From Actinomycetes bacterium (GTDB taxonomy: Bacteria > Actinomycetota > Actinomycetes > Streptosporangiales > Streptosporangiaceae), in NCBI GenBank assembly GCA_021792405.1, contig JAJYUU010000044.1, positions 1 to 35,145 on the forward strand: a stretch of DNA of 35,145 bases, given 5' to 3'. The notes under the pieces are model-generated. The model was not told the DNA's origin and ran no database searches. It worked only from the letters and a program-made list of their open reading frames with translations. A program made the translations under genes and the position numbers. Positions 28,989 to 32,654 of the stretch are shown one piece after another. Position 1 is the first letter of the stretch; every line of letters begins with the position of its first letter.

Positions 28989-29044
28989 ACGTTCGAGACT
29001 ACATCGCTGCATCGGCCGGGAGTTCGGAAATCGGACTTGATCGT

Positions 29045-29082
29045 TGTTGGTTTTCTGTCGCTATAGCGACAGAAAACCAACA
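29045..29082. repeat. 38-bp perfect palindrome in a divergent promoter region
   Basis: Each arm is TGTTGGTTTTCTGTCGCTA and the second arm (29064-29082) is its exact reverse complement, with no spacer. After a three-base mismatch on each side, a further 6-bp pair (CTTGAT at 29036-29041 and ATCAAG at 29086-29091) extends it to 56 bases. The arms are AT-rich compared with the genome. It lies between the divergent AlkB-like and amidotransferase genes. Confidence 0.95.
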
Positions 29083-29138
29083 TCCATCAAGATCGCGAAG
29101 GGCGCTGGGCGCCAAGGCCGCGCACGAGGGAGGGCGAG

Positions 29139-31667: not shown

Positions 31668-32654
31668 GTGGCAGACCAGGAATGGCGGGATCCGCCGCCG
31701 GGGCTGCGCCCGATGCTGGCGACCGCGGGCACCTTGCCGTCGGACGACTCCGGCTGGGCCTATGAGATGAAGTGGGACGGCCTGCGCGCGCTGGCGTTCG
31801 TCGCCGACGGCCAGGTCAGGCTCACCTCGCGCACGACCCGCGACATCACCCAGGTCTACCCCGAGCTGGCCGGGCTCGCTACGGCGTCCGGGGTGCGGCA
31901 GGCGGTGCTGGATGGCGAGATCGTGGCATTCGGCGGCGGCGAGTGGCCTGACTTCGAGGCGCTCCAGCAGCGGATGAACATAGTATCGGCCGCGCAGGCG
32001 AGGCAGCTCGCCGACCGGGTGCCAGTCAGCTACCTGGCCTTCGACCTGCTCTGGCTGAACGGGCGTTCCCTGCTCGACCTGCCTTACTCGCAACGCCGCG
32101 CGCTGCTTGAGGGTCTCGGCCTGACCGGGCCTAACTGGCAGGTGCCGCCATCGTTCACCGGGGAGAGCGGCGCCGACGTGCAAGCGGTCTCCCTGGCGCA
32201 CGGCATCGAAGGCGTGATGGCCAAGCGCCTCCGGTCACGCTACGAGCCCGGCCGCCGGTCTGCCTCCTGGCGGAAGATCAAGAATGTCCGGAGCCAGGAG
32301 GTTGTAATCGGCGGCTGGAAGCCGGGCGAGGGCGGCCGGGCAGGCTGGATCGGGTCGCTGCTGGTGGGCGTCTACGAGGACGACCGGCTTGTCTACGCCG
32401 GCCATGTCGGGACCGGGTTCAGCCAGCAGACGCTGCGCATGCTGGGCGAGCGGCTCGAGCCGCTGAGCCGGACGGCCTCGCCATTCGGCACGACCGTTCC
32501 GCCGGAAGACGCGCGGCACGCCCGCTGGGTAGAACCGGTGCTCGTGGCCGAGGTGACGTTCGCGGACTGGACCAGGTCCGGCCGGCTGCGGGCACCGTCC
32601 TACAGAGGCCTGCGCGGCGACAAGATTCCGGCCGAAGTGACCCGTGAGCCCTGA
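31668..32654 (+). CDS. ATP-dependent DNA ligase, LigD ligase domain as a separate protein
   Basis: A 328-residue ligase with the nucleotidyl-transferase lysine Lys35 in YEMKWDGLRALAF. It also has LDGEIVAFGGGEWPDFEALQ, SYLAFDLLWLNGRSLLDLPY, EGVMAKRLRSRYEPGRRS and SWRKIKN, followed by the OB-fold part (GWKPGEGGRAGWIGSLLVGV). It joins nicks or ends in repair. The beginning GLRPMLATAGTLP is that of LigD ligase domains; the mycobacterial LigC form differs. Start GTG 31668. The polymerase-domain gene begins 11 bases before its stop, so the two are coupled; together they amount to a LigD split into two polypeptides. No Ku gene is visible in the window. Confidence 0.9.
   Translation: MADQEWRDPPPGLRPMLATAGTLPSDDSGWAYEMKWDGLRALAFVADGQVRLTSRTTRDITQVYPELAGLATASGVRQAVLDGEIVAFGGGEWPDFEALQQRMNIVSAAQARQLADRVPVSYLAFDLLWLNGRSLLDLPYSQRRALLEGLGLTGPNWQVPPSFTGESGADVQAVSLAHGIEGVMAKRLRSRYEPGRRSASWRKIKNVRSQEVVIGGWKPGEGGRAGWIGSLLVGVYEDDRLVYAGHVGTGFSQQTLRMLGERLEPLSRTASPFGTTVPPEDARHARWVEPVLVAEVTFADWTRSGRLRAPSYRGLRGDKIPAEVTREP

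Follow-up and report, generated by a model that had tools for sequence, protein, structure and literature searches.

A long palindrome between two divergently transcribed genes raises the question of whether it is an operator serving those genes or a copy of something more widely dispersed. The case considered here lies in the window, by which we mean the whole 35,145-bp stretch of DNA analysed, contig 16 of a 5.39-Mb draft genome (G000). We found that the palindrome is a copy of a genus-specific family of short intergenic self-complementary repeats. With a probability of about 0.72, this family works in the manner of REP/REPIN elements and has a core that is copied between loci.

The palindrome and its surroundings

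The whole element covers 56 bp (29036..29091, without strand), with 93% of its 28 positions paired. Inside it lies a perfect palindrome of 38 bp (29045..29082, likewise without strand), made of two directly adjoining 19-base arms (29045-29063 and 29064-29082) that match as exact reverse complements; its centre, GCTATAGC, occupies 29060-29067. The first position outside the 38 bp is a T/T mismatch, and a CTTGAT/ATCAAG pair follows beyond it. The element divides into an inner core of 34 bp (29047..29080, no strand; TTGGTTTTCTGTCGCTA and its reverse complement), which is the most divergent part between orthologous loci, and two outer feet. The left foot (CTTGATCGTTG; 29036..29046, + strand) is of the type that we call B and has one base different from the same locus in the close relative G004; the right foot (CATCCATCAAG, then ATC; 29081..29091, + strand) is of type A and identical to its G004 counterpart. 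The flank of this copy is imperfect because each side carries a different foot type. The palindrome sits in a 188-bp gap between an AlkB-like 2OG-Fe(II) oxygenase gene (PF13532; 28362..29012, - strand) and a class-I glutamine amidotransferase-like gene (PF00117; 29201..29884, + strand), and it is AT-rich in a GC-rich setting, with 42.9% G+C in the 56-bp element, 61.2% in the intergenic region and 69% in the window. An earlier note on this DNA had described the palindrome with its flank, its base composition and its divergent neighbours in these terms, and the description holds. An ATP-dependent DNA ligase gene (PF01068, PF04679) also lies near the locus, at 31668-32654 of the window.

An origin by chance or by faulty assembly is extremely improbable. 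The assembly is a draft, and several family copies in G002 lie near contig ends, which would fit an artefact. However, the next longest spacerless perfect palindrome in the window has 20 bp, 20 mononucleotide shuffles of the window gave none longer than 24 bp, and 676,913 shuffled bases of G000 held no hairpin above threshold. Moreover, the amidotransferase locus of G004, in another assembly, has kept a family palindrome of related but different sequence, and copies in other genomes already refute this reading.

As RNA, the window palindrome is predicted to fold at -36.9 and -38.9 kcal/mol on its two strands (z about -10). A scan of the window copy found no terminator with a T-run at the palindrome, the single terminator-like site nearby being a weak stem that touches only the left end, and an Rfam search of the window returned 0 matches at gathering score.

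A family of intergenic palindromes in the genus

The earlier note had counted a dispersed palindromic element among its possibilities and had proposed a search for repeats in this and related genomes, and that search bore the idea out. Allowing up to 3 mismatches, a 24-bp core pattern occurred at ten places in G000 and its reversed control at 0, and a related pattern occurred at twelve places. A covariance model built from 11 copies and applied at E up to 1 gave, counted as strand-matches, at least 44 in G000, 58 in G004, and 43, 14 and 10 in G002, G003 and G001, three further species of the same genus; G005, G006, G007 and G008 gave 2, 2, 1 and 4. These counts are possibly low, as the model scored 150 of the 1387 first-look candidates in G000. 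We read 76 copies in all, 20 from G000, 26 from G004 and 30 from the three further species (22 in G002, 6 in G003 and 2 in G001).

Of 345 genomes in an order-wide search, 4 were positive: G000, G004 and two others, from another genus and another family respectively. The 18-bp centre matched 23 stretches in a named genome collection, of which 4 were in G004, 1 in G348 and 18 in unrelated organisms; because these 18 are close to our own chance estimate of about 15, the centre alone defines no wide family. A plasmid search with the palindrome region returned 11 records with short, weak matches only, and in the open-licence PMC literature we recognised no description of the family. Nor were half-arms found as single units: all 21 places of ATGTTGGTTTTCTG (up to 1 mismatch) lie inside known palindromes. 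Long palindromes were also sampled at large, in 432.6 kb that consisted partly of contigs chosen for holding copies, and in 244 kb chosen without regard to copies. The 244-kb sample, which did include several contigs that flank queries had hit, held 2 long palindromes, neither of them a family member. One G000 palindrome (L188:9414-9464) has quite different arms (TGATCCCGAAGACTTA...) around the same centre, GCTATAGC. Family copies about 110-240 bases from the starts of G002 contigs 437, 317, 438 and 387 and of G003 contig 12 look as if palindromes break short-read assembly.

Judged by eye, the copies measure about 46-66 bp and vary in how perfect the palindrome is; they share the layout of outer feet around a 34-bp inner core. 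The centre seen in the window recurs in 14 of 20 copies in G000, 15 of 26 in G004, 2 of 22 in G002, 0 of 2 in G001 and 1 of 6 in G003. Outside the inner 34 bp, three recurrent kinds of foot can be told apart, type A (GATGATCTT, C or G, ATGGATG and variants), type B (CATGATCGATG/CATGATCGTTG) and type C (TTCGCT...GGTGAATG). A crude typing of the 44 copies from G000 and G004 left 29 of 88 ends without a type; among the 18 copies typed at both ends, 13 have the same type on both sides and 5, like the window copy, combine A and B.

Changes in one arm are matched by changes in the other. Across 74 aligned copies (L094 and L032 left out), standard pairs make up 88.9% of cells, two-sided changes occur in 18 of 22 pairs, and the covariation score is 0.395, against 0.166 for shuffled and at most 0.101 for slid controls. 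The score lies above all 500 of 500 shuffles, although these ignore relatedness, so that the figures are not probabilities. In the 44 copies from G000 and G004 alone the score is 0.325 against 0.179 shuffled; the G002 copies, 22 in number and nearly uniform, do not score above shuffles. Several inner positions are nearly invariant among copies, and no constant tetranucleotide tag appears in the 10 columns on each side of the stem in the 74 aligned copies. Paired changes of this kind are no proof of RNA function.

With genes called by a simple codon-position script, a crude gene caller, the 32 non-redundant copies from G000 and G004 fall into 14 codirectional, 12 convergent and 3 divergent gaps, with 3 inside a called frame. 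Against a background of sampled G000 gaps of 80-1000 bp (125 codirectional, 34 convergent, 51 divergent), convergent positions are in excess (12 of 29 classed copies against 34 of 210 gaps; Fisher p 0.004) and divergent ones tend to be scarce (3 of 29 against 51 of 210; p 0.10). All 76 copies, with orthologues counted twice, give 29 codirectional, 20 convergent and 6 divergent, with 7 inside frames and 14 at contig edges. The repeats are non-coding, non-autonomous and mainly downstream of genes, and the divergent region of the window copy is unusual for the family. The earlier note had thought a simple terminator unlikely since the two genes diverge; the argument stands for the window copy. 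In the family, 26 of 29 classed copies are downstream of one gene or more.

These observations bear directly on the suggestion, also made in the earlier note, that the palindrome is an operator for a dimeric or tetrameric regulator. Such a regulator would control the two neighbouring genes, and the palindrome would be one site of its regulon. We consider this very unlikely. The divergent promoter region, the near-invariance of several inner positions and the copy kept at the same place in G004 would all suit an operator, as would the different long AT-rich palindrome (GATTGGGWTTCTCAGT arms) that G001 and G003 carry upstream of the amidotransferase gene; in neither genome was an AlkB-like gene found beside that gene. 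However, the genes next to family copies are unrelated: among 74 neighbour proteins (frames of 90-480 aa, with longer frames dropped) we found no common neighbour, and none of their 123 Pfam families occurs in more than 3 proteins. Together with the 3 of 29 divergent copies and the paired changes between arms, this is not the pattern of an operator, whose half-site would be fixed and would recur in the promoters of genes related in function. In addition, no palindrome scoring above 9 lies upstream of the amidotransferase gene in G005-G008, compared with 22 for the window copy, and the GATTGGGWTTCTCAGT-arm palindrome is itself present at four places in G001 (C261, two on C273, C302) and at one in G003 (C271). 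We read the locus as a gap that two repeat families have independently occupied; regulation may be the explanation instead, but the case for it is weaker. Long palindromes in promoters should thus not be taken for operators too readily, and the hairpin at the window's divergent locus probably has no specific regulatory role. One GATTGGGWTTCTCAGT-arm copy in G001 lies 45 bp before a called gene start, and G002 gave no amidotransferase match.

A second possibility is that the copies are hairpin terminators or stabilisers of mRNA 3' ends, in which RNA pairing is selected and the shared sequence reflects descent and conversion. The stable fold on either strand, the excess between convergent genes and the paired changes are what this would produce, and at L010 the same gap in another species (L168) is filled by an unrelated hairpin. 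As a full account it nevertheless seems unlikely, since the scan found nothing terminator-like at the palindrome of the window itself and some copies occupy gaps between divergent genes. Selection for pairing alone also leaves unexplained why nearly identical cores are present at several loci but not at the orthologues of these loci.

Core turnover at shared loci

That last point emerges from a comparison of G000 with G004. By their flanks, 14 of the 20 G000 copies could be matched to an orthologous copy in G004; one further shared locus, L074, the fifteenth, has a core that differs at 8/40 and stands outside all counts. Across the 14 pairs, differences amount to 95 of 476 positions in the core (20.0%), 13 of 196 in the feet (6.6%), 168 of 1786 in the near flanks (26-100 bp; 9.4%) and 556 of 11957 in the far flanks (100-600 bp; 4.6%), so that the loci persist while their cores change faster (core against near flank, p 1.6e-9; core against feet, p 8.6e-6). 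These rates include all 14 loci; two groups of five loci had been picked post hoc, and their figures are not for use.

At seven of these loci, the G000 core lies 0-3/40 from a G000 paralogue and 7-17/40 from its own G004 orthologue: L017 (0/40 and 13/40), L019 (0/40 and 9/40), the window copy L020 (1/40 and 7/40), L022 (2/40 and 7/40), L024 (1/40 and 10/40), L027 (2/40 and 14/40) and L028 (3/40 and 17/40). Being the smallest of 19 values, the distance to a paralogue is biased toward paralogues. The difference of 7/40 at the window locus does not by itself exceed what the near-flank rate would give (p 0.08), whereas differences of 9, 10, 13, 14 and 17 are significant. Because these seven cores are close to a paralogue and far from the orthologue, cores seem to have been overwritten in place. 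Locus-by-locus differences further suggest that well-paired copies tend toward block replacement of their cores and poorly paired ones toward drift. Among 28 two-sided changed pairs at the 14 loci, Watson-Crick pairing is kept in both species in 22; at L022 all 7 core changes are one-sided, and at the imperfect palindromes L068-L072 the cores differ by 1-5 with 0 two-sided pair changes. Both core versions occur in both species, so that either lineage may have changed at a given locus. Homogenisation is not general, since G004 copies differ among themselves (11.2/40) almost as much as from G000 copies (12.0/40; L071, L094 and L032 left out).

Could the arms simply be copying each other? Local template switching, in which one arm is copied onto the other and old repeats are re-perfected without selection or mobility, is a described mechanism that gives multi-base paired changes within one locus (PMC8794818). 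It would explain arm symmetry, but not one core common to several loci: acting within a locus, it does not bring seven G000 loci to their paralogue-like state, and the imperfect copies at L068-L072 show none of its two-sided changes. We regard it as quite unlikely to be the whole explanation.

The elements are able to form a long hairpin when single-stranded, whether as DNA or as RNA. In the reading that we prefer, the core would be copied from one dispersed element to another, perhaps by gene conversion or by template switching at the hairpin, or else by some transposase or recombinase that would recognise the hairpin. At some loci, a transcribed hairpin may also act on RNA ends through termination or 3'-end protection. 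The earlier note had further mentioned a recombination-related site, which the palindrome may be, since cores appear to be exchanged among loci. A more specific version, which we offer tentatively and hold to be doubtful, is a two-part cassette in which locus-bound feet, of at least three recurrent types and sometimes one per side, enclose an exchangeable 34-bp core, and one version of the core is written into several loci, on both arms together, by a process that needs no RAYT. If true, bacterial hairpin DNA would have a new way of evolving in concert or of moving in place.

Whole elements also differ between genomes. The G004 copy at L079 is cleanly missing in G000, with flanks 96-97% identical, and at this one clean presence/absence site no target-site duplication is obvious by eye. 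In six outgroup genomes the site shows no such palindrome by eye and has its own spacers of 53-145 bp, leaving the event unpolarised. Elsewhere, one arm has apparently been deleted (L085 against L167, L083 against L166) or a remnant of the element is left (L025 against L152). A search for an empty site joined foot to foot gave one match in the DNA searched, which we judged to be chance.

Relation to known palindromic repeats

Short dispersed inverted-repeat elements between genes are familiar as MITEs, among them Correia/NEMIS, RUP and ERIC. In the present family, no partner insertion sequence was identified, and no target-site duplication was seen by eye at L079. REP elements offer a closer comparison, although their copy numbers are usually higher than the tens found here. 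As in the GTAG and CGTC super-families of REPs (PMC3733652), the copies are dispersed intergenic palindromes with a position bias and form dimers of like or unlike units; REPs, too, lie mostly between convergent or co-directional genes, and those of the CGTC group, according to that paper, have no dedicated transposase. In contrast to REPs as described there, our copies lack a constant GTAG or CGTC tag, are without a spacer and perfect in the best cases, measure about 46-66 bp rather than 20-40, and are actinobacterial, a group whose name ("Actinobacteria") is absent from the main text of PMC3733652.

REPINs (PMC3116915) share with our family a doublet of inverted arms that forms one non-autonomous hairpin, and single arms were not found here; they differ in having a spacer between the arms and a Y1 transposase (RAYT) as presumed driver, and in our family cores appear to be exchanged at fixed loci. 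A search for Y1_Tnp (PF01797) gave 0 matches in 9 genus genomes, some of them 72-98% complete, while 5 of 14 control genomes were positive; a Y1 transposase as partner enzyme was thus not found in the nine genomes searched. Among the 25 families listed of the 123 in neighbour proteins, a transposase is likewise absent. The family thus resembles REP/REPIN elements in being palindromic, dispersed, mainly extragenic and placed between convergent or co-directional genes, and because tagged ends and a RAYT are missing, we describe it as working like REP/REPIN without classing it as one. Our verdict is that this dispersed family is new and REP-like, lacks a RAYT in the genomes searched and shows concerted exchange of its cores. 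Dispersed palindromes have been studied best where a Y1 transposase is the presumed driver (PMC3116915). The present family, in Streptosporangiales-like actinobacteria, has no Y1 in the searched genomes, and its cores outpace their flanks at fixed loci, often by changes in both arms together; it thus lets one test in a natural setting how short hairpin DNA gets copied from one genomic site to another.

Other long palindromes were seen in more distant relatives. G027, from another family, has dispersed hairpins of its own (ACCCGTGAGGGGCACCCTCACC... and ACGTGGACTTCACCTCGT..., L215-L224), the two types lying about 86 bp apart at two places, and in 200 kb it has 9 long palindromes, L011's included. 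A 62-bp perfect palindrome around CTGTCGCTATAGCGACAG occurs in G027. In G348, from a sister genus, palindromes of the form GCCTAAGTTCGCGGTTCCTGTCG... (L229, L030) have an inner part that resembles the window's family.
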